Origin: Zoroaster sp. YZ-2022
Lineage: Eukaryota > Echinodermata > Asteroidea > Forcipulatida > Zoroasteridae
DNA length: 64,000 nt
NCBI GenBank assembly: GCA_029582265.1
Contig: CM055816.1
Span: forward strand, 20,393,843-20,457,842
Direction of reading: 5' to 3'
Part shown: in pieces, positions 10,001-52,850 of the stretch
How the letters are laid out: each line of letters opens with the position of its first letter
How positions within the stretch are numbered: position 1 is the stretch's first letter
Translations under genes and position numbers: made by a program
The notes under the pieces: generated by a model
What the model was told of the DNA's origin: nothing
Databases searched by the model: none
What the model saw: only the letters and a program-made list of their open reading frames with translations

Positions 10001-13000
10001 TCGACACAATGACAAGACATTTGAGATACAGTTAAAGCAGCTAGTTTTACATAAATCTGTGATGTGTGTTTCTTCAAGAATACCAATTTGTGGTACATTA
10101 ACCCTCATATTTATTTTATTTCAGGAGCGTGGAGGCACAGACACCTTTAATCATGAGTCTTTAGCCCTCAAGTATAAACTAGACAATGAGTTTGAGCTTA
10201 TATTTGTTGTAAGTACTTATGTATCAACATTTTAACCATAAATATAAATCTTGCATTGTTTTTTATACATTCGAAACAAAAGTCATCATGAGTGTTTCAT
10301 ACAACCATGTGTGTTTCACAAATAAACCCTGTCACAGTAATATACGCCGTGTTTTTGACGGGGCAAAATTGTTTATTTCAATCACTCGTTGCCGTCTGTG
10401 ATCCAGCGCTTGAACTTCACGCTCCATACACAAGGGTGAAGTTTGTGAAGGTCGCAGATGGCAACGAGTGTTCCAAATAAACAGTTTTTCCCCGTTAAAC
10501 ACATGGCACATATTACTGTGAAGGTGTTTATTCACCAGTAATTTTGTTTGGAATTGTTATTTTGTTTCTGTAAAAATGAAGTCAATCTTTTTTCAAACAA
10601 GACTTTATTAAAAACAAAATTGACCGAAATTGACCAAGGGGCAACCATCATTAGTACATCAGGTTGCCCCATTGAATTTTAAGGTTCCCTGGGAAGTAGG
10701 AAACACTTGATTTCATACCTTGAAAAGACAGAGACAAATAGCTGAATATCAATGTACATATAGTCTAATCAAAAAAGTGTATCAGCAAGGGTAGAGCCAA
10801 TGATTTTCCATTTCAGAAAAGTCAGTTTTCCATTTTTACAAATCTTCATTTCCGTTTCGCCCATTAGAACAGTGTACAAAAATCTTTTTCATTTCCGTTT
10901 GACATTATTTCCTACATGTAAATGAATGCACAATGAAAGAGGCCAATTCCGTTAATTCAGTTTCGTTTCCGCTAAAACGGAAAATCATTGGCCCTACAAG
11001 GGTTAAAATTAACACTAGTCTGCTAGCCTGAGGCTAGTGGTTTTAGCAGCGGGACTAATGCATGCAGCTGCTAGGGTTTGGGTAGTGAAAAATGGGCAAG
11101 TGAAAAAAATGGGGGGAAAAAAAAAAACTTGACTTGTAAGTACAAAGTATGTTTTCACCTTTTTCAGGACTATTAAAAAAAATGTGAAGGACTAGAAAAA
11201 TGTTGACATACATGCAGCTAGTCCTTTGGGCTACCATAAAATTCAAGTTAATTTCGACCACTGATCAGCAAAAGAAAAAATACTGTAAAAAAACAAAACA
11301 ACTGATGAGTGAATAATTGTAGCCACAATGTACACTTGTAAATACAGACAGTTACATGTATTGTTTCCCATCTAAGTACTCACAATTTTTGCCTTTAACT
11401 CTTTGGCTCCTAAATTGTTTTGGCAAAAATCACATGGGGCCTCACATAGGGCCTGCATTGTCTTACTCAAGCTGTCATATTTACATTATTATTCCAAATA
11501 ACCTCATCAATGTATACATTTTTATAATCCACAATAATTGTGCATTCGAGCAGAGTAGGTTATGTGGTCAACCCGTCTCCATGACAACAGTACTGGTCAT
11601 GTGACCATGACCAAGATGGCCGCCATGATGGCCGCCATGTTGAAAAAAAAAAATTCTTCTAAATACTGCCTATGAAATGATTCAAAATGTACCCAAACTA
11701 GTAAGAGTTATGTAGAAAAAGCTTTCATAATCCAAACAGAATATAACTTCATGATATTGGTCTTGAATTTTATAATAAACAATTGAAGAACGCTTCAAAT
11801 GACTATACGCTTCAAATGACTTATACGCTGTTTGTTGGTTTATTTTTCCATTATGACAGGTGCAGTCTGTTTTTCTGTGAATGACATTTTGCATTTTCCA
11901 GATAAATCAAAACATGATTTACATATTAGTTCATCCAATAAAACCATGTTCATCAAACTGTTTCCTTGGCAACAGATAGTCATGTGACAATATACAAGAT
12001 GGCCACCAATTTGAAAAAAAATCCATGTTTGTACAGTACATGTACTTTTACACAACCAGTAAAAAGATCTGTTCCAATGAAAAAGTTTCTTTTTGAGCAA
12101 TACTTACTAAAACAATGACTCTAAATTCTCTAACGGCCAAAGATTTCTTAGTGGGAAAAGATGCTAGGAATTTGATGATAATTTTCAAATGCAGCTGCTG
12201 TTCCAAATGTAAATGTTTTTCACACCCATCTGCTAGACTATCTTTTACTCTGGGTGTGAAAAACTTCAAAACAGTCCTTGCACACAAAACAGTCACATTT
12301 GGAACAGTAGTTTGAAGTTTTTCGATCCCGACGCTTCCCCTCAGATGTCTTGCGGTGACCGCAACCAACGCAATGGTGCCTTTCAGGATAACGAGACGAC
12401 AGAAAGTGTTTGCCCTTGAGACGCAAGTCATCGGAGACTGGTTTCCTTCCTGGACTGAAGACCAGTAGTGGGCGTGTAGGATCTGTCCTTCGATCAAGCA
12501 AGGGCTGCACAAGCTCTTCGGCAAGGTTCATCCTGAACGTCTTATGTGCACGCCGCTGCTTTCCATATTCTGGATGAATGGCAAAGCAAAGCACCATAGA
12601 ATTTATGATGCACAAGTCAAGGAGTCGGAAGAAAACCCTCTTCCACCATTTCACAGATTTTCGTCCAATGGCATAGTAGCTTAGATACTGATCACATTTG
12701 TCCACACCATTCATGTACTTGTTGTATTCGCAGATGAGCTCTGGCTTGGTGACCTTTTCATCACGGCGTCTGACCACTTCCTGTGTGCCACTGCCATGGA
12801 TGGTCGACATCGCACGAACATCCCTCTTGTCCTTCCAATAAACAGCGAGTACCTGTCCATTGCGGAGAAATTTCATGTCCCCTTTCTGGAGTGTGTTCTC
12901 CTTGAATCTTTTGGGAAAGTCTCCCCGATTTGATCTTACTGTCCCACAGCAGTATGTAGCATCCATTGCAAGGTCTTTCAGTAACTTCAAATGTGTGTAA

Positions 13001-16000
13001 AAATTATCAAAATATACATGGTAATTCTTGTTCAGGTACAGCTGTAATAAGTCATACACGACTCGGTGGGAGAGACCATGTTCCTGCACTTCACTTTTTC
13101 CTGTGTAGATTTGAAACTGCAAACAATATCCGGTCAGAGCTTCACAAATGGCCCATACTTTGATCCCAAATTTTTTAGGTTTTTTGGGCATGTACTGAAT
13201 GAAACCAATTCTACTCTTTGTTCCAATCATTTGTTCATCAATACTGAGGTTTTGTGAAGGAGTATACAACTCACAAAAACGTTTGTTAATTTTTTCGTGA
13301 AAATTGCCAAGTTTGAAGAGTTTGAACTTTGGGTCACCTCTGTCTGGTTGTTGCTCATTGTCAACAAGGTGTAAGTATCTTCCTATTTGCAAAAATCTGT
13401 CACGAGAAAAAATTGAAGAAAACCATGGCATGTGTGTTATACCTCCTCTTGCCCAACAGTCACGAGCCTCTGGCACACTGACTACGCCCATTGCTATGAC
13501 GACACCCACATATGCCATCATCTCCTCAATGCATACATCACTCCATCGCATTGTGGAGGGGTGAGCAGCTTGCGACTGATGCCGGTAGAGATTTGTCTGA
13601 TCCACGAGGACTTGAAAGAGCTCCTGTGTGAATAACAGCATGAAGAAATCCAAAATGGTCCTTGCTCCAGCCACAACTCCATGTGGTCCAGGCTGCTCCA
13701 GACATTGTATGTTGGCATTTGGGTTTTGATATTCACCACTCACGTCAATCCACTCAGGGTCTCCATCTCGTTTCTGTTGGTTTCCTCTTTGATTTCTTCT
13801 CCTTGTACCCCGACCAGAACTCCCCCTGCGTCGATGACCACCACGAGCTTGCTGATCACCTTGGCCTCTGCAGGTGTGATTACTGGACACTCCTGCAGTA
13901 TCCATGCGATTGGGTATTTCATCGTCACTAGATTCCTATAAAATACAAAGAAATTTCCTAAAATATAACATTTCACTGAATATTCAGTAAATTGACAGCC
14001 AAAACCAATAAAGGATCGAGAGTGAGCCTTCTAAAATGAACATACATGTAGCTATCTATTGTATCTTAGCCACATGGCTTCATTGGTACGGTAGGTGGCT
14101 TGAAAAAAAAGAAGTTTCATTGGGAAAAATATTGGGAAAAATATATCCGAAAATATTGAAAGAAAACCTTTTGTATAAATGAATGACCCAACAACCTTAG
14201 GCCCAACGACCGGATACCGACGATCCGTGGCCCAACTAAGACCTAAAACTGATCAAAATGAACTAGACAATAAATCTGACAATTGACAGGTGAATCCAAG
14301 AAGACAGGTGCACGTGTCACATGTTCCAAAACGGGCCACTCCGCGTACAGACGAGGTGGACAGTGCACATTCCAGAAGGTGATATAAACAGGATCTCAGA
14401 AACACAGACCAGCACCCCAGGGCCTAATGCCAATCATCTTTATAAAATTATAACAATAAACACCTAAATGATCTTTATAAATCTTACCTCCTCTTGTGAT
14501 GAAGTATTGAAAACACTAACACGATCACATGCATCGATACATGTACTAGTACTAGGCCCAGTAGCCAAGATGGGAATGTTGCACTGATTCCCATCATCGT
14601 CTTCAAAATCGCCAATAAGCTGATCATCAGAATCACTTAGCTCATCTGAGGAACATTCTCCTTCATCTATGCGCCATAAAATTTCTTCAGCCGTCAGTTT
14701 ATGACCCCTTTCCATGGTTATTTGCTCACAATCCTTCGCTAAATAGACAGACTTTCTTCAAACAATCCACCTGGTACACATACGTAACCAGGTACATACA
14801 GTGTACGTTCACATGAGTTGTAGTCTGCTTCCTATCCACCATAAACCAGTAAAATGGTAATATAACACAGATAAAGAACCTTGGGAACCAGATTGTTAAT
14901 ATTTATTAGGTTCTGGAAGGCAGGGTCAACATTAAACGGACTCCATTCAGACGCAAATATTGTGGGGTTCATATGCAAATTTTGTGGGGTCGTTAACGAC
15001 CCCTCTCGGCGCGAAAGAGTTAAGAAAGAACCTGCTAGGTTCAAAACGTAAGGCCAATATCTACAATATTGTATTCTCCTGAGGACGATCAGAGCATACT
15101 GATCGAAACGTCGAGTTGTACCTCCAGTTCTTTTCAGAACTAATTACTACTCAATTGAGCATTTCACATGGTGTCACCGCAATTACTCTTACTTAATATC
15201 TACAATGTTACGATTTCATCATGTTTACTAACTCTTCCATTGAGCATTAAACATCTTTCCTATTCTCCTAGGTCGCATACCAAAAAATTCTTTCTCTTTC
15301 CTACATGGACAAATTTATTGATGACATCCACCTTGAATTCAGAGATAAATACAAAGAGGATTTGAAGATTGGCAGTTTGTTTGGTAAATTTGACTTCAAT
15401 AATGAGTTCCAACGAGTACTGCAACTGGCAGAGAGAGAGAATCGAGACAAGGCCAAGATAGGGAAACAGGTGGGTAAATGTGCACAGTATGGGATTCATT
15501 AGTGGTTAACAGGTGGATGGGATAAGTGGATAACATGTGGATGGGATAAGTGGATAACTGGTGGATGGGATAAGTGGATAACTGGTGGATGGGATAAGTG
15601 GTTAACAGGTGGATGGGATAAGTGGTTAACAGGTGGATGGGATAAGTGGATAACAGTTGGATGGGATAAGTGGTTAACGTGGATGGGATAAGTGGATAAC
15701 ATGTGGATGGGATAAGTGGATAACAGGTGGATGGGATAAGTGGTTAACATGTGGATGGGATACATGTAAGTGGTTAACATGTGGATGGGATAAGTGGATA
15801 ACATGTGGATGGGATAAGTGGATAACAGGTGGATGGGATAAGTGGTTAACATGTAATGGGATAAGTGGTTAAAAGGTGGATGGGATAAGTGTGCTAACAG
15901 GTGGATGGGATAAGTGGATAACAGGTGGATGGGATAAGTGGTTAACATGTGGATGGGATACATGTAAGTGGTTAACATGTGGATGGGATAAGTGGATAAC

Positions 16001-19000
16001 AGGTGGATGGGATAAGTGGTTAAAAGGTGGATGGGATAAGTGTGCTAACAGGTGGATGGAATATAAAGTGGTTAACAGGTGGATAGACATGGGCAGAAAG
16101 GAAAAGTATTGGATTTGCGGATAACGAAAAGGTTATCAGGGAAGGTGATTAGACCCAGAGAGTATGTGGCTAGTGGAAAAGAGGTGGGCAGACACTCTGA
16201 AATGTGCACATCCCATATTAAAAAAAAAAAAAAATTTGGGGGGGGGGGAGGGAGGGAGAGGGAAAGAGGGACAAAAATTGGCAGGACAAATTATTTTGTT
16301 GTAATTGTCTATACATTTATCCCCCCCTTCTCCCCATCAAGCCTATTGGCACAAATAATTCACAGGGAATTTATTAAATATGAACCAGGCTTAAGGAAAG
16401 AAATGTATTTACATTTTCCTGTTTGTAATTTCGTTTGTCCCTGATAGATGCGGACATTTGGAGAGTCCCAGAAATCCAAGAAGACGGTGGCATCGATGAT
16501 ATTTGAACCGAAGAAGGAAGAGAAAAATAAAACAAACAAAGCCAAGAAAGCAGGTGAGGCCATTTCGTTTAAATTACTTTATGCATTATGGGTGGGCAAC
16601 GGGGGAATAAAAACACCACGAATGAGGGTGTTTAATGCAACTACTATGAAACGATGAGTGAAATATATATGGCATTAAGAGTGGGCCCAAAACCTCAAAA
16701 ATGTAACGTGAGTAACCATGGAATTACCCCTCAGAGGTGAAAGGCTCAAATAAGACTTGCATCCAAAAATAGATTGGTGATAGATCGGTGATAGATCGGT
16801 GATAGATCGGTGATAGATCGGTGATAGATCGGTGATAGATCGGTGATAGATCGGTGATAGATCGGTGATAGATTGGTGATAATCGGTGACTAGAAAATGG
16901 TTACCAACTTCATTAAACAGAAATAGTCAGACATGGACTCGCCTCATCACTTTGGACCAAAAATACAATTTGAGTAAAACAAGTCAACAGAGATGAATTG
17001 TCACTGAATGGAGTTGCACCATCATTTCGTCGCATCAGTGCAACAAGGTCGTATCATAGTTACGACCTTGTTGCAGACATGGATTTTGCTCAGTGCAACA
17101 AGGTCGTATCTTTTTACAGAGTTCCAGGATGAACACGCAAAACCTATGGAAGATACAACATTGTTTCATTTTTAGATACGACCTTGTTGTTCTGACAGGA
17201 CGATTTATCAATCAATCATAAAATTGTATCCTGTTGTTGATTGTTTGTTAAGCTGTGAAGCCAGATCCAGCCCCGACCCAAATCATCACCAATGGTGCCA
17301 AAGATGACCAGGAGGAAATCAAGCTGGATGAAGAGACTATACTCAAGAACCGAGAACGTTTGTTCAACAGGACTAAGACCAAGAAAGTTGAGAAATCACC
17401 GTAAGTGTCAAAGATGCAAGAAGACGATCAGAGTATACTGATCGAAACGTCGAGTTGTACCCTCCATTTTTTTTCAGAACTTATTCTTACTTAACCCTCC
17501 TACTATTGCTGCACTTTTGTGGGAAGTTGCTATAGAGGTCAAAATCAGTCAACTGTCTGTTTTGACTGTTGACCAAAATGTGCACACAGGGGCATTTTTG
17601 ACTGGTTTTTACTGTCATTTTGACTACCCTGAACAATACTAGACATTGCTTTTACCAGTCAAACTTTTACCAGTTAAACAACAGTCGACTCATTTTGACC
17701 TGTAAATGTACTTACAACATGTAAGGTTTGACAGTGTTTGACTTTTAAGTGCACTACATATACCTTGGGAAGTATTTCAACATTTTGACTGATTTTGACC
17801 CTTGTAGTAGTAGGAGGGTTAACCAGTTCGCGTCGGAGGCCGTTTATACACGCACATTTTTTTTTGGACAGCGGATCGGAGAGCGTCTAAACACGCCACA
17901 GGATTCTCGGGAATTTTGTATAGATTCCCGGTCGACGTGGCAACGAGCCATAAGCATACGGTGGAAGACGCGGTCTCCCCGGTCACGCTCTGGTGAGCAC
18001 CATTGTTCGTGTTTGTGCGGTAAAAATAAACCCGCCACGGGGGTTCGGAAAAACTTTTTTATTCCCGGTGCGAACTGGTTAAGTGCACTAGATATACCTT
18101 GGGAAGTATATCAACATTTTGACTGATTTTGACCCTTGTAGTAGTAGGAGGGTTAATTGAGAATTTCACATCGTGTCACTGCAAACGGTACTTAACTTGC
18201 AGATACTTCATAATTCTGGGTAACTGATGTGACACAGAATAAATTTGCATTTACACATCCCCACATGATGACACCACATTTAAAGGGATTATACACAACA
18301 GTACAACAATAAGAATTGCTTTACACAAATGTTACGTGTTGAAAAGGAAATACATGAATATTTTGTCAACATGTAGGAAAATAAGTGAAGCATAATGCTT
18401 TTGTACTTTCCCCATTGAACAGACAAAAACGTGAACAGGACATGATATGATAGACAAAGACAAGATGATGGCAGAGACCCGATTATTTAACCATTTAACC
18501 CTCCTGTAGGTTTAACAATCAAAGACACTCAAAATTTGTATGTCACTCCCAACCCATTGACTTTGTGCAGTGCACTCAAATGAATGCAAGGACATGTGGC
18601 TATGGTAGGAGGTCAAACCAAAACCACTCCACTGTAACTTATGCAGTACATACACAGCTCTGTGTGACTCTGCATATAACTTATGTAGGACATACACAAG
18701 TGTGTTTGACTTTGCCACTAACTCCAGCACTCTTAGAGAAAAATACACACGTGTGAACAATTGGCAATGCAACCAAAAATACTCAAGTGACTGTCTGTGG
18801 GTGCGGTGCTTACTGGGCCAAATTTCAGCCTGGGCATAGGAGGGTTAATCAATGGAATTAAAATAATCACTTTTAACACATTTGGTAATTACCTGTTCAC
18901 AAAATGCCCGACTTAAAATCTAAAAACTAACTTGATTTGAATTAGTGATCAAACATCCTGAGAAATGATTCGTCCGACATGCTGTTTAGAAAATGTGAAA

Positions 19001-22000: not shown

Positions 22001-25000
22001 GTAGGACCAGGGCTCGATTTCACAAAGCACTAAGATTCATCTTAAGATGAGTTGTTAGTATTACCATAGTGATTTGTATTGTGACATCACACTTTGCTAA
22101 GCAATTAAGATTGATACACAGTTAAGATCAATCTTAGCTCTTTGTGAAATCGGCCCCAGGTGAAGCCTGGACCTGGCTGGGCTTCTCACACTATGAATAA
22201 CTTTACCCTGAAAATGCCCTGAAAATCCATTTTGCCGTGAAATAACATTTCACCGTAATTTCATGGCAATTTCATGGTGGCTCTCCTCAGATATTGACAA
22301 AAATGTTTACGGTGATTTCAGGGCAAATTCACGGCGCTCTCGAGAATTAATGAGCTGCCCCAAAACTGCCACAAGCAGTTCATGGCGTTTTCACGGAGAA
22401 GGAATCTCAAGAGTATTTCATGGCGTTTTCACGGTGTTGTGTCATCATGAAATTACTGTTTATTTCACGGTAAAACAGATTTTCAGGGCATTTTCAGGGT
22501 AAAGTTATTCATAGTGTCAAAGGCTGGCCAGTACCAAGACATTGGCCCTCATCCCTAACATACAGTATTAACTGAATGCTTAACATTTCATTGTGTCAGT
22601 GCAAAAACGTCGTATGTTCACAATGCAATAAGGTCGTATGTACAGCGCGTCGTCAATCTGCATGAATTTACATACATTAAAAAATGTTTGTGCAACAACG
22701 TCGTATCTCAGCCATTGCTTTTGTGCATTCATCCGGGAACTTGTTACATACGACCTTTTTGCACTGACACGACGATTTAGAGTTACAGGATGATGACATG
22801 AAATTTGTTATTGCTTCTAGTTGGCCATGGTTGGTTCTATGGCAGGCGATCTTCAAAATATTGATGAGTCAAGTGGTGAGGAAGAAGATGAGGTAGAGGA
22901 GGAAGGTGAGGAAGATGAGGAAGATGAGGAAGAAACTACCCATCAGGAGGAAACAAAGACCCAGCAACCCAACCGACAAAAGTAAGGGAACGTCTTAAGA
23001 CTCGGTTTGTTCCACTTTGGCATCAAGTGAGCGCATTGTGCGTACACTGTATGCACGTATGTTATGGTACTAACCATGCCATGTACTTTTGCAAGCCAAT
23101 GATCGCTGGAGATATTCCGCGCGTATGCACATCAATTGCAAAATACGCCAAATGCGACGCACTATCGCTGCCCTTTCACCCACAGTGGTCTAACAATATC
23201 AGAAAGGTACTTCGTTAATAAGATTACAATACATAAGATTACAATACAAGTTAAATGCATGTCATTATTACGTCATCGTTATCTTTCTACAGGTCATCCA
23301 AGTCCAGTGGGTTTGGTGTCTTCAACATGTTCAGGGGCCTTGTAGGGTCTAAGACACTCACCAAAGAAGACATGGCCTCGGCAATGGATAAGATGCGAGA
23401 TCATCTTACTGGTGAGTTGCTTGTAGTTATTCATGTTCAGGGGCCTTGTAGAATCTAAGGCACTCACCTAAGATGACATGGCCTCGGCAATGGATAAGAT
23501 GCGAGATCATCTTACTGGTTAGTTGCTTGTAGTTATTCATGTTCAGGGGTCTTGTAGGGTCTAAGACACTCACCAATGAAGACATGGCCTCGGCAATGTA
23601 TAAGATGCGAGATCATCTTACTGGTGAGTTGCTTGTAGTTATTCATGTTCAGGGGCCTTGTAAAATCTAAGACACTCACCTAAGATGACATGGCCTCGGC
23701 AATGGATAAGATGCGAGATCATCTTACTGGTGAGTTGCTTGTAGTTATTCATGTCCAGGGGCCTTGTAGGGTCTAAGACACTCACCAATGAAGACATAGC
23801 TTTGGCAATGGATAAGATGCGAGATCATCTTACTGGTGAGTTGCTTGTAGTTATTCATGTTCAGGGGCCTTGTAGGGTCTATGACACTCACCAAAGACGA
23901 CATAGCCTCGGCAATGGATAAGATGCGAGATCATCTTACTGGTGAGTTGCTTGTAGTTATTCATGTTCAGGGGCCTTGTCGGATCTAAGGCACTCACCTA
24001 AGATGACATAGCCTCGGCAATGTATAAGATGCGAGATCATCTTACTGGTGAGTTGCTTGTAGTTATTCATGTTCAGGGGCCTTGTCGGATCTAAGGCACT
24101 CACCTAAGATGACATAGCCTCGGCAATGTATAAGATGCGAGATCATCTTACTGGTGAGTTGCTTGTAGTTTTTCATGTTCAGGGGCCTTGTAGGGTCTAA
24201 GACACTCACCAATGAAGACATGGCCTCGGCAATGGATAAGATGCGAGATCATCTTACTGGTGAGTTGCTTGTAGTTATTCATGTTCAGGGGCCTTGTAGG
24301 GTCTAAGACACTCACCAAAGACGACATAGCCTCGGCAATGGATAAGATGCGAGATCATCTTACTGGTGAGTTGCTTGTAGTTATTCATGTTCAGGGGCCT
24401 TGTAGGGTCTAAGACACTCACCAATGAAGACATGGCCTCGGCAATAGATAAGATGCGAGATCATCTTACTGGTGAGTTGCTTGTAGTTATTCATGTTCAG
24501 GGGCCTTGTAGGGTCTAAGACACTCACCAAAGACGACATGGCCTCAGCAATGGATAAGATGCGAGATCATCTTACTGGTGACTTGCTTGTAGTTATTCAT
24601 GTTCAGGGGCCTTGTCGGATCTAAGGCACTCACCTAAGATGACATAGCCTCGGCAATGTATAAGATGCGAGATCATCTTACTGGTGAGTTGCTTGTAGTT
24701 TTTCATGTTCAGGGGCCTTGTAAAATCTAAGGCACTCACCTAAGATGACATGGCCTCGGCAATGTATAAGATGCGAGATCATCTTACTGGTGAGTTGCTT
24801 GTAGTTTTTCATGTTCAGGGGCCTTGTAAAATCTAAGACACGGCCTCGGCAATGGATAAGATGCGAGATCATCTTACTGGTGAGTTGCTTGTAGTTATTC
24901 ATGTTCAGGGGCCTTGTAGGGTCTAAGACACTCACCAATGAAGACATGGCCTCGGCAATGGATAAGATGCGAGATCATCTTACTGGTGAGTTGCTTGTAG

Positions 25001-28000
25001 TTATTCATGTTCAGGGGCCTTGTAGGGTCTAAGACACTCACCAATGAAGACATGGCCTCGGCAATGGATAAGATGCGAGATCATATTACTGGTGAGATGC
25101 TTGTAGTTATTCAGGTTCATGGGCCTTGTAGGGTCTAAAGGCAAAACAAATTTGTTAATAAAACAAAAAAGTTCCTTTTCCTCTTTTCAGCTAAGAACGT
25201 TGCTTGTGACATCGCCGAGAAACTTTGTGAGTCAGTGTCGACCAAGCTAGAGGGAAAAGTCCTCGGTACATTAAGCCGTAAGTTCAGCATAATTATTTTA
25301 TTGCTTAAAATCAGTGTACACTTTTAGTTAAATGTCTGTAATTATGCATCGATGCTTTATTAGAATCAAGAGAGATGTATAATAGGGGTGATGATATTGA
25401 ATTTTTTTGATAATCGATTTTTGACGGCATAATATCGGCGATATACAATATTATCGTCTCAATACGCAGATTTTTTAAATACATAAAAAAATGTATGTAT
25501 CGTACATTAGCGACATTGACACCCATATATGAACTACTTTTACAGTTCTACAGGGAAGTTGCGTGGGTAATGAATTAAAGACCACAATCGCAAGTAGTGG
25601 GAACATGAGCGGCGCAGTGTCTTGATTTTTTTCTTTCTTTTAAGCTCTTCACGGTACCGTAACTCCAGCAATATTTTAACTAAAAATAGCTATATAAATT
25701 TGATACCGGCTCTATTTTTGGAATATCGGCTATTGGAATATCATCAATATAGCGATATTTCGATGACCCCTTTTGTTTAGCTGCAATTGTAAAAGTTTCA
25801 TAGTGCGGCTCTGAGGAGAGACGTGCGCAGAAACCTTTTTGGGGGCCTCAGTTAAGTTTTATACTTTCCTTAACCCTAACTCCCTAGGCCCATTTGCTTA
25901 CACATAACCTGAATCCTTCCTAACTCCCTAGGCCCATTTGCTTACACATAACCTGAATCCTTCCTAACTCCCTAGGCCCATTTGCTTACACGTAACCTGA
26001 ATCCTTCCTAACTCCCTAGGCCCATTTGCTTACACATAACCTGAATCCTTCCTAACTCCCTAGGCCCATTTGCTTACACATAACCTGAATCCTTCCTAAC
26101 TCCCTAGGCCCATTTGCTTAATCGTAACCTGAATCCTTCCTAACTCCCTAGGCCCATTTGCTTACACATAACCTGAATCCTTCCTAACTCCCTAGGCCCA
26201 TTTGCTTACACATAACCTGAATCCTTCCTAACTCCCTAGGCCCATTTGCTTACACATAACCTGAATCCTTCCTAATTCCCTGGGCCCATTTGCTTACACA
26301 TAACCTGAATCCTTCCTAACTCCCTAGGCCCACTTGCTTACACATAACCTGAATCCTTCCTAACTCCCTAGGCCCATTTGCTTACACATAACCCGAATCC
26401 TTCCTAACTCCCTATGCCCATTTGCTTACACATAACCTGAATCCTTCCTAACTCCCTAGGCCCACTTGCTTACACATAACCTGAATCCTTCCTAACTCCC
26501 TAGGCCCATTTGCTTACACATAACCTGAATCCTTCCTAACTCCCTAGGCCCATTTGCTTACACATAACCCGAATCCTTCCTAACTCCCTAGGCCCATTTG
26601 CTTACACGTAACCCGAATCCTTCCTAACTCCCTAGGCCCATTTGCTTACACGTAACCCGAATCCTTCCTAACTCCCTAGGCCCATTTGCTTACACGTAAC
26701 CCGAATCCTTCCTAACTCCCTAGGCCCATTTGCTTACACATAACCTGAATCCTTCCTAACTCCCTAGGCCCATTTGCTTACGTAACCCGAATCCTTCCTA
26801 ACTCCCTAGGCCCATTTGCTTACACGTAACCCGAATCCTTCCTAACTCCCTAGGCCCATTTGCTTACACATAACCTGAATCCTTCCTAACTCCCTAGGCC
26901 CATTTGCTTACACGTAACCCGAATCCTTCCTAACTCCCTAGGCCCACTTGCTTACACACAACCTGAATCCTTCCTAACTCCCTAGGCCCATTTGCTTACA
27001 CATAACCTGAATCCTTCCTAACTCCCTAGGCCCATTTGCTTACACGTAACCCGAATCCTTCCTAACTCCCTATGCCCATTTGCTTACACATAACCTGAAT
27101 CCTTCCTAACTCCCTAGGCCCATTTGCTTACACATAACCTGAATCCTTCCTATAACTCCCTAGGCCCATTTGCTTACACATAACCTGAATCCTTCCTAAC
27201 TCCCTAGGCCCATTTGCTGACACATAACCTGAATCCTTCCTAACTCCCTCGGCCCATTTGCTTACACATAACCTAAACCCTTCCTAACTCCCTAGGCCCA
27301 TTTGCTGACACATAACATGACATGTATGCACACATGTGTTTCTAATCTGTGATACATGTACATGGCCAGGGACCCTCCCTGCATGCATGGAGCAATTATT
27401 ATTTTTTATTATTATTATTATTTATTCGGCCAGAAAATGCAACAATAATACAAACAATACAAATCATACATGAAAATAAATCATGGTAACTCTTTCGAAT
27501 TAACAGGAAACAAATTAAGGAAAATATGATAAGAGGTGACAGAAGCCATCTCATGGAACAACACAGGAAAATAAATTAATTTAAAGGCAGGAAAAAAGGC
27601 AGGCGTAGATAAGACAAAACAAAACAAATCCATTTTAAGATGGCCAGGATTAATAAAAGTGTACTTAAACACTGTGACTCGAAAGCCTATCAATCCAGTC
27701 TTAAAAAGTAACACTGATTTCGAAAAATAAAATATGATATATCTAAGCATAAAATAAAAATGTATACACATGTAAATAAAAAGATACAACATGAATCAAA
27801 CCACTGGAACAGTCAATACAATGAAACAGTAATATCAACAACCAAACAAACAATAGGCACCCCAACAAACAAACACACAGACAAACAAACAAACAAGCAC
27901 TGACCTTGCAATCACTACAACAAACATGGATGTACATGTACCATAGAAAGGCAAGTATGCCTAATAACCTCATTCCTCCAAAATCCTTCACTTTAGCAAA

Positions 28001-31000
28001 GAGCATGTAGCATGTAACCTCAATCCTTCAAAATCCTTCACTTTAGCAAAGAGCATGTAGCATGTAACCTCAATCCTTCAAAATCCTTCACTTTAGCAAA
28101 GAGCATGTAGCATGTAACCTCAATCCTTCAAAATCCTTCACTTTAGCAAAGAGCATGTAGCATGTAACCTCAATCCTTCAAAATCCTTCACTTTAGCAAA
28201 GAGGATTTTGGAGGATTTGGGAAGGTTAGGGTTAAACAGCACGATGATATTTATTTTGCATCTTGTACACAGGTGTGACTTCAGTGGTTCGTGAGGGGAT
28301 CCAGGAGTCACTGGTACAGATTCTATCTCCACGTCGTCGTATTGACATCTTACGTGATGCTATGGATATATGCTCCCGTGGTCGTCCTTACTCCATGGTG
28401 TTCTGCGGCGTCAATGGAGTGGGAAAGTCCACTAACTTGGCCAAGGTATCATAAAGATTTATTGTAACTGTTTCATATTGAACTTATCTATGACAAACTC
28501 TTTCCAAATACATTACTGAATTCTTTGTAGTCATGCATTGTAAAAACGGAGGTGAAAATGTGACCAAGTGGAATTTAAAGGGAAGGTACATCATTGGTAT
28601 TTAGAAATGTACGTTCATTTGGGTAAATTGTCTGTAGATGCATCCATGTCTGTAGATGCATCCATGTCTGTCTGTAGGTGCATCCATGTCTGTAGATGCA
28701 TCCACGTCTGTCTGTAGATGCATCCATGTCTGTCTGTAGATGCATCCACGTCTGTCTGTAGATGCATCTATGTCTGTCTGTAGATGCATCCACGTCTGTC
28801 TGTAGATGCATCTATGTCTGTCTGTAGATGCATCCACGTCTGTCTGTAGATGCATCCACGTCTGTCTGTAGATGCATCCATGTCTGTCTGTAGATGCATC
28901 CATAGCTGTACGTGCATCCATGTCTGTAGGTGCATCATGTCTGTAGGTGCATCCATGTCTGTAGGTGCATCCATGTCTGTAGATGCATCCACGTCTGTAG
29001 GTGCATCCATGTCTGTAGATGCATTCACGTCTGTCTGTAGATGCATCTATGTCTGTCTGTAGATGCATCCATGTCTGTCTGTAGATGCATCTATGTCTGT
29101 AGATGCATCCATGTCTGTCTGTAGATGCATCTATGTCTGTCTGTAGGTGCATCCATGTCTGTCTGTAGATGCATCCATGTCTGTCTGTAGGTTCATCCAT
29201 GTCTGTCTGTAGGTGCATCCATGTCTGTAGGTGCATCTATGTCTGTAGATGCATCCATGTCGGTCTGTAGGTGCATCCATGTCTGTAGGTGCATCTATGT
29301 CTGTAGATGCATCCATGTCGGTCTGTAGATGCATCCACGTCTGTCTGTAGATGCATCCACGTCTGTCTGTAGATGCATCCACGTCTGTCTGTAGATGCAT
29401 CCACGTCTGTCTGTAGATGCATCCACGTCTGTCTGTAGATGCATCCACGTCTGTCTGTATATGCATCCACGTCTGTCTGTAGATGCATCCACGTCTGTCT
29501 GTAGATGCATCCACGTCTGTCTGTAGATGCATCCACGTCTGTCTGTAGATGCATCCACGTCTGTCTGTAGATGCATCTATGTCTGTCTGTAGATGCATCC
29601 ACGTCTGTCTGTAGATGCATCCACGTCTGTCTGTAGATGCATCCACGTCTGTCTGTAGATGCATCCACGTCTGTCTGTAGATGCATCCACGTCTGTCTGT
29701 AGATGCATCCACGTCTGTCTGTAGATGCATCCATGTCTGTAGATGCATCCACGTCTGTCTGTAGATGCATCCACGTCTGTCTGTAGATGCATCCACGTCT
29801 GTCTGTAGATGCATCCACGTCTGTCTGTAGATGCATCCACGTCTGTCTGTAGATGCATCCACGTCTGTCTGTAGATGCATCCACGTCTGTCTGTAGATGC
29901 ATCCACGTCTGTCTGTAGATGCATCCACGTCTGTCTGTAGATGCATCCACGTCTGTCTGTAGATGCATCCACGTCTGTCTGTAGATGCATCCACGTCTGT
30001 CTGTAGATGCATCCACGTCTGTCTGTAGATGCATCCACGTCTGTCTGTAGATGCATCCACGTCTGTCTGTAGATGCATCCACGTCTGTCTGTAGATGCAT
30101 TCACGTCTGTCTGTAGATGCATCTATGTCTGTCTGTAGATGCATCCATGTCTGTCTGTAGATGCATCTATGTCTGTAGATGCATCCACGTCTGTCTGTAG
30201 ATGCATCCACGTCTGTCTGTAGATGCATCCACGTCTGTCTGTAGATGCATCCACGTCTGTCTGTAGATGCATCCACGTCTGTCTGTAGATGCATCTGTGT
30301 CTGTAGATGCATCCACGTCTGTCTGTAGATGCATCCACGTCTGTCTGTAGATGCATCCACGTCTGTCTGTAGATGCATCCACGTCTGTCTGTAGATGCAT
30401 CCACGTCTGTCTGTAGATGCATCCACGTCTGTCTGTAGATGCATCCACGTCTGTCTGTAGATGCATCCACGTCTGTCTGTAGATGCATCCACGTCTGTCT
30501 GTAGATGCATCCACGTCTGTCTGTAGATGCATTCACGTCTGTCTGTAGATGCATCTATGTCTGTCTGTAGATGCATCCATGTCTGTCTGTAGATGCATCT
30601 ATGTCTGTAGATGCATCCATGTCTGTCTGTAGATGCATCTATGTCTGTCTGTAGGTGCATCCATGTCTGTCTGTAGATGCATCCATGTCTGTCTGTAGGT
30701 TCATCCATGTCTGTCTGTAGGTGCATCCATGTCTGTAGGTGCATCTATGTCTGTAGATGCATCCATGTCGGTCTGTAGGTGCATCCATGTCTGTAGGTGC
30801 ATCTATGTCTGTAGATGCATCCACGTCTGTCTGTAGATGCATCCACGTCTGTCTGTAGATGCATCCATGTCTGTAGATGCATCCACGTCTGTCTGTAGAT
30901 GCATCCACGTCTGTCTGTAGATGCATCCATGTCTGTCTGTAGATGCATCCATAGCTGTACGTGCATCCATGTCTGTAGGTGCATCCATATAATTTGTAAG

Positions 31001-33560
31001 AATCAAGATATATGTATAAAAACCAATCTTTGAAAGTCAGTTTATTTAATTTTGTCAATTATAAGGAGAAAATTGTGAAAATGCATTCAGATTGTTTGTA
31101 TCCATTCCAATGTGCAATTTCTGGAAAAGTGGGATATTTACCAGGCCTGTGATTATCTCGGGATATTTTCCTGATTTCAGGATTTTTTTTACAAATCTCC
31201 ATTTGCCTCAGAATTTTCTTGAAAGAAGAGAAGTATCCACCAAGGAAAGAAAGAAGTAGCCTGTATTGTGTCCAAACCTCTAGTTTCTTGTTTGTGGGGA
31301 TGTGGAGAGTCTGTAAATCGTCGAAAATTAAACATCCAGGAGGTTCAGGGGGGCTTTGTCCTCTAGACCAAAGGGAGACCCAGGATCGCTTGCCATTTTT
31401 CACAATTTTGTTACTTTTGTCAAATCACACCCCCGAGTTAATCCTGAAAGAAATTTGAGATACCAAACTCGTTAATTTATATTTTCAGATCTGTTTTTGG
31501 TTAGTTGAGAATGGTTTCAATGTACTGATTGCCGCCTGTGATACATTTCGTGCTGGAGCTGTCGAGCAACTCCGTACCCATACCAGTCATCTGAACGCTC
31601 TCCACCCTGCCGAGAAACATGGAGGGCGTTCTCCGGTACAGCTCTATGAGAAAGGTTATGGGAAGGATGCAGCTGGCATAGCTATGGAGGCTATCAAATA
31701 TGGTAATACTCGTGGCGCGTGTTTTCGCGACCCTGACCAGAAACATGTTAGGGGTTCTCATGGGCGGATCCAGAACATTTTTTAGGGGGGGGGGGGGGGG
31801 GGCTGAGAATCAAAAACAATTTATTTTCAGTACAGTACTAAGTAGGTCACCTCCTTATGTTTATCCTGCACACTGTGGGAATGGGAGTGCGTTCTCTCCT
31901 CCCCTCCCTCTCTCTCTCTCTCTCTCTTTTTTATTTATTTTATTTTATTTTATTTTTTTAACGATTTTAGGGGGCTACAACCCCCTTAGACCCCTGGATC
32001 CGCCAATGGTTCTGTTATTGGTTAAGCTTTTTCGTGAGTCAGGTTGCGCTGCAATGACGTCAATGTTCTGACCAAACGTAAACCGAAGTTTGTGATTGGT
32101 TCTATTTTGACAAAATTTTAATTACACGTATATTTTGAGAAACGGTGATGATTGAACATGTCACAAACTGAAAATAATTTTCTGGTTATGTTCACGTTTA
32201 CACATAATAATAATAATAATAATAATAATGTGGACTTATATAGCACATGTATCCACTAAACTGGTGCTCAAGGCGCATTATATTATTACCCCTGCTCATC
32301 AGGCTCATAAATCATTCCTGAAACCATCTCAGCTCCCTGGGGAGAGTATACAGCTCAATTGCTGCCATTACAGCGCATATAGGGCTAATCAAACACAACA
32401 ACCAACTCTGCCCTCACAGGTACCCATTTACCCCTGGGTGGAGAGAAGCAATTATGGTAAAGTGTCTTGCTCAAGGACACAAGCAACATGGCTGCGGTTG
32501 AGATTCGAACCCACATTCTGACGACTCGGCCATCAGAACACAAATGATGCATTAAACCGCTCAACCATGGCACTCCACATAGATATGCCATCTTGTTTCT
32601 GGTCAAGAATTTGACGTCAGAAACAAGTTTCTTTTCATGTTTACCAAAACACATCCCAGATCTCTATTGCACTTACTGAATAGAGGGTCGACCTATTGGT
32701 AAAAGCATTGTCTTGTATTGTAGAGAGGGTCAAAATGACAGTAAAAACCAGTCAAAAATGCCCCCTGTGTGCATATTTGGGTCAACAGTCAAAACAGACA
32801 GTTGACTGATTTTGACCTCTATAGCTACTTTCCACAAAAGTGCAGCAATAGTAGGAGGTTTAAGTAAGGCAGTTGACTGATTTTGAGGGTTAATGATAAT
32901 TTCATATGTTGATTTCATTAGGAAAGTCAATAATAATAGTAATTTGTTTCTTCATTGCATCTCAATCAAGGTGTTGTCCAGGATTTAGAAATACGGTGTC
33001 CAAATGTAAATGACAAATAAAATCTTCTTCATCTTTCGGCTGCTCCTTGTTGTTAGGGGTCGCCACAGTGAATCATCTGTTTCCATCTCTTCCTGTCCTC
33101 TGCATCTTCCTCTGTTGCACCAACCACCTGCATGTCCTCCCTCACCACATCCATAAACCTCCTCTTTGGCCTTCCTCTTTTCCTCGTGCCTGGCAACTCC
33201 ATTTTTAGCATCCTTTTCCCGACATACACCTCATCTCGTGGCCAAGCGGTCTAGCTTACCGGACTCAAGTTCTGGTGTTAGCAGCAGAATGTGGGTTCGA
33301 ATCCCGGCCGTGACACTTGTGTCCTTGAGCAAGACACTTAACCATAATTGCTTCTCTCCACCCAGGGGTTAAATGGGTACCTGTGAGGGCAGAGTTGGTT
33401 GATTAGCCCTATATGCGCTGTAATGGCAGCAATTGAGCTGTATACTCCCCAGGGAGCTGAGATGGTTTCAGGAATGATTTATGAGCCTTATGAGCAGGGG
33501 TAATAATATGCACCCTGAGCACCACTCAGTTGGTGGATACATGCGCTATATAAGTCCACA

Positions 33561-33593
<33 letters not shown>

Positions 33594-36500
33594 CATCTCT
33601 CCTCTGCACATGTCCAAACCATCTCAATCTCACCTCTCTCACTTTGTCTCCAAACCGTCTAACATGAGCTGTCCCTCTAATATACTCATTCCTAATCTTG
33701 TCCATCCTCGTTACTCCCAACGAAAACCTTAGCATCTGACAGATAAAATAGAGTGTCCAAATTTGCTGGGAAGTGACGGATTGCTAAAAAATCGTATTTT
33801 TTTGGAAAATGAGTTTAGTCAATATTTGGACTTCAAATACTGTTATCTTTCATTTCACCAAGTTTTAATCCGCAAAACTATCTAGTTTTCTAATTAAAGT
33901 AATGAAGTTTTTGTAAAATTGAAGTAAACTGTGGTTTTGTTTTCACGAAGTGACCGATCGCAGCCTTGTGCATGTATTACTGCATGTATTTTATGCGAAC
34001 GGCGTGTTTTTAAGTTTTCACGAACTGACACAATTCGATCACGCCACACGTGTGTTCCACGAAGTTGACGCGTGTCCATATACTAATGCACAGGAAACGT
34101 CAGTTCGTGAAAACTTGACAACAGCGTGTGCAGTTTTCACAAAATGACTGTTTGGTTTATAAGTTTATTACTCGTTTATAGTTATTTTCCTCTACAAAAC
34201 AAATCTAGTTACGTATCATATGAGATTTCAGCTTTCTAACAAAGTAAAAATTAATGATCTTCGAGATTAAAATGACATCGAAACCGCGGTTTTAAAACTT
34301 GACGAACTTCAATCGCTTATATCTCACAACGCGATTTTACCACGACGTGGACGAATATAATAATAATAATAATAATAATAAAGATTTATAGCGCGCACAT
34401 ATCCACCCTGCTGGGCGCTCAAGGCGCGGAAACAAAGATAAAAACATGAATACAAACAATATACAATGATAACATAGGGAAAAATTATGTACTGAGATAC
34501 ACGTACCTACAATGGAATTACAAATATACATCATCTTTGAAGAATTGTGACATAAGATGAGTTTTAAGCATCGACTTAAATCTAGTTATACTATGACAAG
34601 ATTTGAGTTTAGTTGGAAGATGATTCCAGAGTCTCGGAGCCGCGACAGAAAAAGACCTATCACCCCAGTTCCGCTTTTGATGTTGGTTCCTTTAGGAGTG
34701 ACATGTTGCTGGAGCGCAAATTATGTGATGGAGTGTAGACTTTAAGCAGTTCAGAAATATAAATTGGAGCAATGTTATTAAAAGATTTGTGAACAATTAG
34801 CATAAGTTTAAAACAATTCTCTGTGAAACAGGAAGCCAGTGCAGTTCTTTTCAAGATTGGCGTGATATGGCATGACTTTTTGGACAAAGTCACAACACGA
34901 GCTGCTGTGTTTTGTATGTTCTGAAGACTAGATATTTGATTCTGCGGGAGACCGTAGAGTAGAGCATTCCGTTATCGGGACGTGATGTGACAAACGCATG
35001 AATAATTTGTTCAGTAGCACTTTTATTCAAGTATTTCCTTATTCGGCTGATATTTCTGATATGAAATGATGATATGCGAACAATGTTGGAGATATGAGGT
35101 TTTAAAGTCATTGTCGAGTCAAATATAACACCCAAATTACGTGCTTGTGATGAGGGGGTTATCTGCAGTCACCAATTGCAATAGATGGAAGAGAAACTTT
35201 AGACAATTGCTGACGTGATCCAAATAGAACAAATTCTGTTTTTCGTCGTTCAATTTCAGGAAGTTTTGTCGCATCCAACTTCGAATCTCTTGAATACATT
35301 TCTCCAGTGTTGTAATGCAGGAATCGGCAGGTTCTTGAGAAGATTTAAAAGTAATGTAGAGCTGCGTGTCATCAGCGTAGACATGGTAATTTAAATTATA
35401 CTTCAAAATGATATCACGAACTGGAAACGTATAAACAGTAAACCACTGTGGGCCGAGCACGGAGCCTTGGGGTACAGAATAGTCAAGAATAACAGGCTCG
35501 GAGGTGGCATTACCAATACAAACATGCTGAGGCCTATTTAAAATGTAGGACTTACACCAATCCAGGGCTGTGTCATGTATTCCAAGATGATATTGCAGGC
35601 GGGAGAGAAGGATTTTGTGATCGACCGTGTCAAAAGCGGCGCTTAAGTCTAACAAAACTAATGCAGTGATTTTTCCATCATCCATGGCAGATAAAATGTC
35701 ATTGTTGACGCGGAGAAGAGCAGTTTCCGTTCCATGAAATGGTTTATAGGCTGACTGAAATGTATCCGACAGGTTATTCACACGAACATGGTCAGAGATC
35801 CGTGATGAAACAACTCGCTCGATTGTTTTTCCAAGGTACTTTAAATTCGCCACCGGGTCGGTAATTTTTGAAAACTTCCTTGTCCAAATTGGGTTTCTTC
35901 AGGAGTGGTTTAACATGAGCAATCTTCTGGCTATCAGGAAACAACCGGAAGAAAGAGATCTGTTTACAATAATTGTGATATACTTAGCAAACACATCAAT
36001 ATTTTGTTTTATTAGCGAAGTTGGCACTGGATCAAGTTCACCACGATTTTGATGGCGATTTCATGATGAGTTTCTTGATCTCCGTAACACTAGTAGGCTC
36101 AAACATAGACAGTCTACATTGTGGATCCTTGCGTGATGGTGTTTGTGATAGAATGACAGGTACTGGGGGAAAATAACGACGGATATTCTCAATTTGTGTG
36201 ACAAAAAAGTTTGAAAATTCATTAGCGAGGTCCTGATTGGAGTGTGTAGATGGAAGCACTGGAGCTTTGGGTTTATGAAGCAGCTTTTCAACAATGTTAA
36301 AGAGTTTTTTCTGATCGCCAGAGTTCTCTTCCACAAGAGATGAGTAGTGAGTTATTTTGGCCTGGTTAATCATGTTCTTCACAATATCTCGTTGGTTACA
36401 GTATTCTTGCCGATGTACTCCAAGTTTCCCATTGTCACGCCATTTTCGTTCAAGTTGACGACGGATTTTCCTTGCAGCACGAATATCATCATTGAACCAG

Positions 36501-39500
36501 GGGGATTCAGATTGTAGTTTTACAGTTCTAGTTTTTTGCGGAGCATGATCGTCCAAGATGTTACGGACAGTAGATTCAAATAGATTGACACAAGAATCCA
36601 GCTCACCATCTTCAAGGTTTATGTCACTTCGTGAAAACTGCGATGAATTGTTCACTTACAATATGTTTACATGTAAATGACAGATAAAATAGGGTGTCCA
36701 AATTGTTCACTTACAATACTTTTACATGTAAATGACAGATGAAACAGGGTGTCCAAATTGTTCACTTACAATACTTGTACATGTAAATGACAGATGAAAC
36801 AGGGTGTCCAAATTGTTCACTTACAATACTTGTACATGTAAATGACAGATGAAACAGGGTGTCCAAATTGTTCACTTACAATACTTGTAGATGTAAATGA
36901 CAGATGAAACAGGGTGTCCAAATTGTTCACTTACAATACTTTTACATGTAAATGACAGATGAAATAGGGTGTCCAAATTGTTCACTTACAATACTTTTAC
37001 ATGTAAATGACAGATGAAACAGGGTGTCCAAATTGTTCACTTACAATACTTGTACATGTAAATGACAGATGAAACAGGGTGTCCAAATTGTTCACTTACA
37101 ATACTTGTACATGTAAATGACAGATGAAACAGGGTGTCCAAATTGTTCACTTACAATACTTGTACATGTAAATGACAGATGAAACAGGGTGTCCAAATTG
37201 TTCACTTACAATACTTGTACATGTAAATGACAGATGAAACAGGGTGTCCAAATTGTTCACTTACAATACTTGTACATGTAAATGACAGATGAAACAGGGT
37301 GTCCAAATTGTTCACTTACAATACTTGTACATGTAAATGACAGATGAAACAGGGTGTCCAAATTGTTCACTTACAATACTTTTACATGTAAATGACAGAT
37401 GAAACAGGGTGTCCAAATTGTTCACTTACAATACTTTTACATGTAAATGACAGATGAAACAGGGTGTCCAAATTGTTCACTTACAATACTTTTACATGTA
37501 AATGACAGATGAAACAGGGTGTCCAAATTGTTCACTTACAATACTTTTACATGTAAATGACAGATGAAACAGGGTGTCCAAATTGTTCACTTACAATACT
37601 TGTACATGTAAATGACAGATGAAACAGGGTGTCCAAATTGTTCACTTACAATACTTTTTACATGTAAATGACAGATGAAACAGGGTGTCCAAATTGTTCA
37701 CTTACAATACTTGTACATGTAAATGACAGATGAAACAGGGTGTCCAAATTGTTCACTTACAATACTTGTACATGTAAATGACAGATGAAACAGGGTGTCC
37801 AAATTGTTCACTTACAATACTTTTACATGTAAATGACAGATGAAACAGGGTGTCCAAATTGTTCACTTACAATACTTGTACATGTAAATGACAGATGAAA
37901 CAGGGTGTCCAAATTGTTCACTTACAATACTTTTACATGTAAATGACAGATGAAACAGGGTGTCCAAATTGTTCACTTACAATACTTTTACATGTAAATG
38001 ACAGATGAAACAGGGTGTCCAAATTGTTCACTTACAATACTTTTACATGTAAATGACAGATGAAACAGGGTGTCCAAATTGTTCACTTACAATACTTTTA
38101 CATGTAAATGACAGATGAAACAGGGTGTCCAAATTGTTCACTTACAATACTTGTACATGTAAATGACAGATGAAACAGGGTGTCCAAATTGTTCACTTAC
38201 AATACTTGTACATGTAAATGACAGATAAAATAGGCTGTCCAAATTTGCTGGAAATTTCAAAACGGTGACAGATGAAATAGGGTGTCCAAAATTGAAACTG
38301 GGTGTCCAAAAGACACCCCTCTGGCTAATACTGTGATCTCAATGATGTTTATTCATGTTAGTCTGATGTTGTTTTGTTGTGTTTCCTTCCTCCTAGCCCG
38401 AGATTACCACTTTGACATTGTGTTGATTGATACAGCAGGACGTATGCAAGACAATGAGCCTCTAATGAGAGCACTATCTAAGGTAATTACTCTGTCCTCA
38501 AGTGGATCCAGGGGTAACATTGGAACGAGCCTCTAATGAGAGCACTATCTGAGGTAATTACTCTGTCCTCTAGTGGATCCAGGGGTAACATTGGAACGAG
38601 CCTCTAATGAGAGCACTATCTGAGGTAATTACTCTGTCCTCTAGTGGATCCAGGGGTAACATTGGAACGAGCCTCTAATGAGAGCACTGTCTGAGGTAAT
38701 TACTCTGTCCTCTAGTGGATCCAGGGGTAACATTGGAACGAGCCTCTAATGAGAGCACTGTCTGAGGTAATTACTCTGTCCTCTAGTGGATCCAGGGTAA
38801 CATTGGAACGAGCCTCTAATGAGAGCACTGTCTGAGGTAATTACTCTGTCCTCTAGTGGATCCAGGGGTAACATTGGAACGAGCCTCTAATGAGAGCACT
38901 GTCTGAGGTAATTACTCTGTCCTCTAGTGGATCCAGGGGTAACATTGGAACGAGCCTCTAATGAGAGCACTGTCTGAGGTAATTACTCTGTCCTCTAGTG
39001 GATCCAGGGGTAACATTGGAACGAGCCTCTAATGAGAGCACTATCTGATGTAATTACTCTCTGATGTAATTACTCTGTCCTCTAGTGGATCCAGGGGTAA
39101 CATTGGAACGAGCCTCTAATGAGAGCACTATCTGAGGTAATTACTCTGTCCTCTAGTGGATCCAGGGGTAACATTGGAACAAGCCTCTAATCAGAGCACT
39201 ATCTGAGGTAATTACTCTGTCCTCTAGTGGATCCAGGGGTAACATTGGAACGAGCCTCTAATGAGAGCACTATCTGATGTAATTACTCTGTCCTCTAGTG
39301 GATCCAGGGGTAACATTGGAACGAGCCTCTAATGAGAGCACTATCTGAGGTAATTACTCTGTCCTCTAGTGGATCCAGGGGTAACATTGGAACAAGCCTC
39401 TAATCAGAGCACTATCTGAGGTAATTACTCTGTCCTCTAGTGGATCCAGGGGTAACATTGGAACGAGCCTCTAATGAGAGCACTGTCTGAGGTAATTACT

Positions 39501-43368: not shown

Positions 43369-43540
43369 GAAGCTTCCTAAGACGTGCCTCCCAAATCTTG
43401 AAGATCTTCATCAAAGATGAAACCACTTTCATATAGCAGCTGAGCGAAAAACATTTTTGTTATGCAATATGAAACAGACCACCAACCAAAATCAACACAA
43501 CTTGTATGACAGCTTGGCTGGTACCCAATTAACTAATCAG

Positions 43541-43561
43541 AATAAACTGCTGAGCAATAAA
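43541..43561 (+). terminator. SRPRA polyadenylation signals
   Basis: Two AATAAA hexamers (43541-43546 and 43556-43561) lie 173-190 nt after the stop codon. Mature 3' ends probably fall just before the TTAA element at 43599. Confidence 0.65.
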
Positions 43562-43598
43562 TCTGTGCAAATAGTTGGTCTGTGAAATTGACCGTTAA

Positions 43599-44338
43599 CC
43601 CTCCTACTGTTTGACCATTTGAAACCATTCAAAATTTCCACTTTCAGAAATGGTCATTGGTCTTGTACACACATGGTGATACCATTTGAAAAGTGTTGGC
43701 AGCAAGCTTTACTACCATTCAAATCCATTCAAATGGTTTTTGAATGGTGGATACACTACACCTTGGTGTGTTTCCATAGCCGAATGGTTTCAAATGGTGA
43801 ATGTACTACACAGTGGCGTATAAATCATTCAAATGGTTTTGAATGGTGGATACACTACACCTTGGTGTGTTTCCATAGCCGAATGGTTTCAAATGGTGAA
43901 TGTACTACACAGTGGCGTATAAATCATTCAAATGGATATGAATGGTGGATACACTACACCTTGGTGTGTTTCCATAGCCGAATGGTTTCAAATGGTGAAT
44001 GTACTACACAGTGGCGTATAAATCATTCAAATGGTTTTGAATGGTGGATACACTACACCTTGGTGTGTTTCCATAGCCGAATGGTTTCAAATGGTGAATG
44101 TACTACACAGTGGCGTATAAATCATTCAAATGGATATGAATGGTGGATACACTACACCTTGGTGTGTTTCCATAGCCGAATGGTTTCAAATGGTGAATGT
44201 ACTACACAGTGGGTTACATGTATAAATCATTCAAATGGTTTTGAATGGTGGATACACTACACCTTGGTGTGTTTCACAAAACGAATGGTTTCAAATGGTG
44301 CATCAACTTGTCTGAAAAAGGCACCAGAAGTAGGAGGG
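43599..44338 (+). mobile_element. TTAA element, family D with internal 102-bp tandem repeats
   Basis: TTAA flanks (43595-43598, 44339-44342), CCCTCCTACTG start, AAGTAGGAGGG end. The interior is built of CCATTTGAAACC/GGTTTCAAATGG words. About five tandem 102-bp units run from about 43733 to 44270. Because 102 is divisible by three, a 243-aa frame stays open, but it looks like no protein. Confidence 0.85.
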
Positions 44339-44490
44339 TTAAAAAACTAAAAAATATTAAAATGCATAAACCATTTCTGAAGAGAGATCTATTTTCATTA
44401 AGAGCATGTTGGCCAATCTGATACTGCTTTTCACCCAAGAAGTTTTCTCCAAAACAACAATTCTACCAACTTTTTAATCAAAAATGTTGA

Positions 44491-44765
44491 CAGGCCTATG
44501 ATTTCTCTGGATTTTTCCTAATTTGAGGATTTTTTTTTTTTTTTCACAAATCTCCCCTTGCCTCAAAAGTAACCATCAAGGAAAGAAAGAAGTAGCCTGT
44601 ATTGTGTCCAAACCTCTAGTTTCTTGTTTGTGGGGATGTGGAGAGTCTGTAAATCCTCCACAATTAAACATCCAGGAGGTTCAGGGGGCTTTGTCCTCTA
44701 GACCAAAGGGAAACCCAGGCCCTGCTACCCATTTTTTCAGGATTTTTTATTTTTGTCAAATCTGT
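44491..44765. repeat. dispersed repeat R1, copy 3
   Basis: Same block as 417-712, including AAGTAGCCTGTATTGTGTCC and GTGGGGATGTGGAGAGTCTG. Confidence 0.75.
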
Positions 44766-46647: not shown

Positions 46648-46689
46648 TATAATATAGGCATAATACAAGCCCACTGCTGGTGGAAACAT

Positions 46690-49940: not shown

Positions 49941-49944
49941 TTAA

Positions 49945-52835: not shown

Positions 52836-52850
52836 TAACCCTAACTCCCT

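Follow-up and report, generated by a model that had tools for sequence, protein, structure and literature searches.

Tandem arrays that straddle an exon/intron boundary are known from amphioxus, where they have been named mirages. They occur there in Adh3, globins, TnC, and PGBD5, and, according to two reports, splicing is seemingly undisturbed and the arrays are linked to the making of new introns (PMC3087553, PMC3902484). Here, we analyze a 64,000-nucleotide stretch of DNA from the deep-sea sea star Zoroaster sp. YZ-2022 (assembly GCA_029582265.1, contig CM055816.1, positions 20,393,843 to 20,457,842; "the window"), in which the gene for the signal recognition particle receptor subunit alpha (SRPRA) carries two such arrays, one at the end of exon 8 (mirage 1) and one at the end of exon 12 (mirage 2). 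New here are the finding of a mirage in an echinoderm and the occurrence, in a housekeeping gene, of long arrays in which near-identical donors compete; no report of echinoderm boundary arrays is among the literature matches listed, in a search that most subscription journals lie outside.

The amphioxus globin genes BflGb6 and BflGb9 resemble SRPRA in having an exon/intron boundary that is tandemly duplicated in minisatellite fashion, with AG/GT signals in many of the copies, and reverse transcription-PCR suggests that they are regularly spliced. Units at the edges of the globin clusters escape homogenization, and in mirage 2 the exon copy does likewise. In contrast, the BflGb6 array lies at an acceptor, with units of 150 to 160 bp that number six and three in two haplotypes (the BflGb9 unit is 157 bp) (PMC3087553), whereas the arrays in SRPRA come from a sea star, have units of 106 and 71 bp in 17 and 23 copies, and are found only at donors. 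PGBD5 of amphioxus resembles SRPRA in that a single gene bears two boundary arrays (of 60 and 108 bp) and a first copy abuts the 5' splice site, and its copy numbers vary between assemblies (2 or 7, and 3 or 6). However, its copies are few and imperfect, with no mRNA across them (PMC3902484), whereas the SRPRA arrays are longer and more regular and sit in a housekeeping gene. For amphioxus Adh3, a length instability that extends to somatic tissue has been reported (PMC3087553); this array differs in its unit of 10 to 72 bp. In the RNA-dependent RNA polymerase gene of potato, a tandem duplication across an intron-exon boundary likewise carries splice signals, but it is a single duplication that produced a new intron (PMC4974935); the SRPRA arrays lie inside existing introns, with no sign of a new one.

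Results

Mirage 1 extends from position 23326 to position 25138 of the forward strand and comprises 17 donor-bearing copies of a 106-bp unit followed by a 27-nt partial copy. Read directly from the assembly, the unit joins the last 86 nt of exon 8 (positions 23326 to 23411) to the first 20 nt of intron 8 (positions 23412 to 23431). It thus fits the definition of a mirage, in which the unit joins exon and adjoining intron sequence and many copies carry the splice signal. The original prediction had described a unit of 105 bp (84 plus 21 nt), copied with its coding sequence and 5' splice site together and followed by about 17 more; this make-up of exon end plus intron start is borne out, whereas the size and the number of units that follow need correction, the latter to 16. 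The 18 unit starts define 17 spacings, all of them 106 nt except one of 90 nt, and the array consists of 16 full-length copies (including that in exon 8), a 90-nt copy 15, and the final partial copy, in which 2 of the 27 bases depart from copy 17. Tandem Repeats Finder (TRF) reports a period of 106 with 94% matches over positions 23326 to 24841 (score 2591), and its best score, 3066, belongs to a period of 212 over positions 23326 to 25138. Copies 8 and 13 are identical in sequence, as are copies 9 and 16, and neither pair is adjacent, which may hint indirectly at length instability of the array. As had been claimed, nearly every copy retains GGTGAGT, exactly so in 14 of 17; copy 2 has GGTTAGT, copy 12 has GGTGACT, and copy 17 has GGTGAGA.

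When the unit was searched against the 1.0-Gb assembly, there were at least 17 matches, all within the array. As far as such a search can tell, mirage 1 is a local array, and a dispersed repeat, considered as an alternative identity for the 106-bp unit, was rejected.

The SRPRA gene occupies positions 3926 to 43368 of the forward strand, as placed by matches to PDB sequences and by tblastn with the Asterias protein. Its 14 exons form a single open frame of 652 codons, all 13 introns are GT-AG, and exons 7 to 14 are 92% identical to Asterias amurensis SRPRA. Solved SRPRA chains were matched by the translated window; a PDB-sequence search with one frame of positions 33000 to 47999 gave no match. 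Exon 8 (positions 23293 to 23411; 119 nt) contributes its last 86 nt as copy 1 of the array, and intron 8 (positions 23412 to 25190; 1,779 nt) is made up of 1,727 nt of array and 52 nt of unique sequence with the acceptor region, followed by exon 9 (positions 25191 to 25277). Closed at donor 1, exon 8 is part of the 652-codon open frame. Joining donors 2 to 17 to exon 9 leads in 16 of 16 cases to the same stop codon inside unit 2, whereas donor 1 meets no stop, and the earlier statement that only the first donor gives an open frame is thereby confirmed.

The inner copies bear no sign of coding constraint or of being read as protein. Compared with exon 8, the 15 other full-length copies hold 39 nonsynonymous and 9 synonymous changes plus 6 to stop codons, where the single changes possible in the exon 8 stretch number 192, 54, and 6, respectively; this tally omits the 90-nt copy 15 and counts changes common to related copies in each of them. 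The donors are also no better conserved than their surroundings, since among the 16 full-length copies variation affects 3 of the 9 sites in the donor 9-mer and 22 of the 106 in the whole unit. The likeness of the donors therefore reflects the homogeneity of the array and not any protection of them. Calculated pairing with the 5' end of U1 gives -9.2 kcal/mol for the common mirage 1 donor and -5.2, -5.1, and -8.1 kcal/mol for the three variants. Within the set of SRPRA donors covered by this calculation (exons 3 and 7 to 13), the values are -5.0 to -6.6 kcal/mol for exons 7, 9, 10, 11, 12, and 13 and -13.0 kcal/mol for exon 3. On this scale, the majority of inner donors equal the true donor in strength, and the description of the copies as equivalent donors stands for 14 of the 17 but not for the three weaker variants.

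Mirage 2 spans positions 38456 to 40120 of the forward strand, with 23 copies of a 71-bp unit that combines the last 27 nt of exon 12 (positions 38397 to 38482; 86 nt) with the first 44 nt of intron 12. A GTAATT donor occurs once per unit in 23 of 23, after AAG or GAG in 21 and after GAT in 2, and an 87-nt unit holds an extra GAT|GTAATT. The AAG of exon 12, a lysine codon, begins with G in all 22 intronic copies (20 GAG and 2 GAT), and lysine is present at this site in each of the four proteins of echinoderm relatives that we read. The exon copy has thus retained a lysine codon that is gone from the rest of the array. Reading through past exon 12 meets stops in the second unit. A possible acceptor, CTCTGTCCTCTAG, is present in the 22 copies after the first, where copy 1 has CTCAAG. 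From this motif to the next donor, the 22 pieces measure 51 nt in 20 cases, 50 nt in one, and 69 nt in one, and in the phase used they read WIQG followed by a stop (TAA). The edges of mirage 2 enclose a whole number of 71-bp units, internal indels aside, and the AAT found at the exon 12 edge is met again where the last unit ends; the two may have provided microhomology for the first duplication.

A third boundary array was encountered in a myosin-head gene, at positions 1634 to 3520 of the locus designated L043 (C15, from 12688433 to about 12690319), with 16 starts of a unit of about 117 bp. If the exon ends at AGG|GTACGT, this unit takes 66 nt from the exon and 51 nt from the intron. The exact stretch GAAAGGGTACGT occurs in 11 copies, and a possible acceptor lies 92 nt beyond the end of the array. 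Mirages are thus not confined to SRPRA. The genome has 74 myosin-head exon matches, of which the 69 with at least 400 nt on both flanks were used and 5 were left out; L043 is the only mirage among the 69, and a 13-bp, 4-copy row that overlaps one match by 5 nt was left uncounted. No mirage was found at kinesin exons among the best 20 of 128 matches, where a 20-bp, 2-copy TRF row overlapping an exon match by one base was likewise not counted and the remaining TRF rows lie at least 21 nt away. Outside SRPRA, then, mirages number 1 in 89 sampled exons. In both samples, the ends of domain matches stand in for exon ends, and an array reaching no farther into an exon than its final bases could therefore escape.

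Several myosin exons also have 88-bp arrays close by, on C3, C12, and C15 (TRF rows at L036/L055, L046, L045, and L043). By eye, the units of L036 and L043 are reverse complements of each other, and these arrays are perhaps a dispersed element with a minisatellite.

Within SRPRA, a 24-bp array at positions 15501 to 16084 begins 31 nt after the exon 3 donor, and its unit and that donor have the 9-mer AACAGGTGG in common, a likeness equaled in score by 5 of 1,383 random gene windows. It is possibly a degenerate boundary array, or else the product of chance. We did not accept it as a third SRPRA case, because it has no exon overlap and is one among several places open to such a comparison. Large minisatellites that are purely intronic lie at positions 25875 to 27320 (44 bp), 28629 to 30951 (22 bp), and 36646 to 38245 (55 bp), and the long minus-strand open reading frames at positions 28601 to 31058, which overlie the 22-bp array, are probably repeat artifacts. 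Intron 2 contains an open frame of 555 codons on the minus strand (positions 12238 to 13905) with a DDE_Tnp_1_7 transposase domain (E = 1.3e-93), which we take to be of the piggyBac type, and intron 11 holds a reverse transcriptase fragment, RVT_1 (E = 1.2e-27), at positions 35137 to 35853 on the minus strand. Tandem copies of GCTCATAAG are found at five separate places in the window and on both strands (positions 5246 and 55315 on the plus strand; 33478, 57559, and 58342 on the minus strand). The scan, which called for at least two copies with at most one mismatch, gave nine matches where none are expected, and the sites are perhaps part of a dispersed element. A Pfam search of both strands of positions 44000 to 53901 found no gene.

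Discussion

We conclude that mirage 1 is, with a probability of roughly 0.87, a minisatellite grown from a tandem duplication that chanced to straddle the exon 8/intron 8 boundary. Such a duplication would have been followed by expansion and homogenization through unequal exchange, slippage, or conversion. The identical but nonadjacent copies and the best-scoring 212-bp period suggest unequal exchange or conversion, and they fit the growth by slippage or unequal exchange that was originally proposed. Because a duplication across a donor leaves copy 1 on the intact exon, splicing at donor 1 would still yield the normal mRNA, and boundary arrays can survive selection for the same reason. Exon 8 would then be the left end copy, held by purifying selection, and the extra copies would be intronic freight, from which most of intron 8 has been built. 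Donor 1 may be chosen as the first complete exon end after the exon 8 acceptor, through exon definition of a 119-nt exon and because it is the first to be transcribed, and slips to later donors would presumably be removed by nonsense-mediated decay.

Several considerations weigh against this reading. The evidence for use of donor 1 consists of the open frame and the conservation of the protein, and in cell-free systems a duplicated 5' splice site is often spliced at its intron-proximal copy, contrary to what this reading requires. The array ends in a 27-nt partial copy, and its right edge is thus not a clean duplication edge but one that needs an extra deletion. The array-free ancestor of intron 8 is postulated from the DNA of Zoroaster itself, and the copy number of mirage 1 comes from one assembly, made by wtdbg2 from Nanopore reads.

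It seems unlikely that the arrays owe their birth to a process linked to the splice site or to transcription where exons end, such as polymerase stalling or R-loop formation at the 5' splice site. Of the nine SRPRA arrays of at least 200 bp, which cover 27% of the gene, two straddle a boundary, against 0.37 expected from random placement of one unit each (P = 0.049). On its own, this figure leans toward an excess of boundary arrays, but the gene was chosen because of the finding, and in the myosin sample, whose choice took no account of arrays, 1 of 29 arrays straddles a boundary against about 1.6 expected. All three mirages lie at donors and none at acceptors; however, three of three at one end has a probability of 0.25 if the ends are equally likely, and amphioxus mirages affect both boundaries (PMC3087553). 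As random placement of duplications roughly explains the number seen, a mechanism anchored at the splice site is not needed. The original prediction that the intron expanded from an anchor at its own 5' splice site is accordingly not sustained, and the donor is conserved to no greater degree than the remainder of the unit.

A slightly less probable alternative holds that the extra donors are functional, either holding U1 or diverting transcripts into decay-prone splicing and in this way tuning the level of SRPRA. The identity of 14 of 17 donors, a calculated U1 pairing that surpasses that of most other exons covered (although exon 3 is stronger), and the premature stop that follows from every inner donor are all consistent with such a role. 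However, the donor 9-mer enjoys no conservation beyond that of the array, the structure recurs in unrelated places (exon 12 and myosin), and the numbers are roughly those of random birth.

We regard it as very unlikely that mirage 1 is an assembly artifact, with copies inflated or scrambled by long-read consensus or polishing. Nanopore reads were assembled by wtdbg2, Illumina data served for polishing, and the contig N50 is 376 kb (PMC10394057). Assemblies of this kind err at repeats, and the exact copy numbers therefore carry some doubt. Given that contig N50, however, reads spanning 1.8 kb are likely, and the window is free of N. Substitutions are patterned and common to several copies, 16 of the 17 spacings are exact, and there are three separate boundary arrays. 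Least credible of all is the reading of the units as alternative exons in series, like those of mutually exclusive exon clusters. Every unit does contain a donor and 86 nt derived from the exon (less in the 90-nt copy), but we rejected this reading because a length of 106 nt, not being divisible by 3, shifts the frame, an in-frame stop occurs in 6 of 15 full copies, the changes are those expected without constraint, no pyrimidine-rich acceptor is visible by eye (unscored) ahead of the exon piece of mirage 1, and the recurring acceptor-like-to-donor piece of mirage 2 reads into a stop.

Taken as minisatellites that chanced to straddle exon ends, these arrays extend a little-known amphioxus structure to an echinoderm, in which two long examples share a housekeeping gene and another lies in a myosin gene. 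They also illustrate one route of intron growth, since array sequence accounts for 97% of intron 8 and, in intron 12, for 85%. Each locus, with as many as 17 or 23 near-identical donors set in similar sequence, is a ready-made test of 5' splice site choice. More tentatively, and with somewhat less than even confidence, we suggest that array-rich introns commonly give rise to straddling minisatellites as a by-product throughout the animals, that an appreciable share of Zoroaster genes contain them, and that its spliceosome reliably takes the outermost of many identical donors. If so, the loci would be natural experiments in which exon definition or first-come choice overrides the intron-proximal preference, and whole introns could be built from repeated exon ends.

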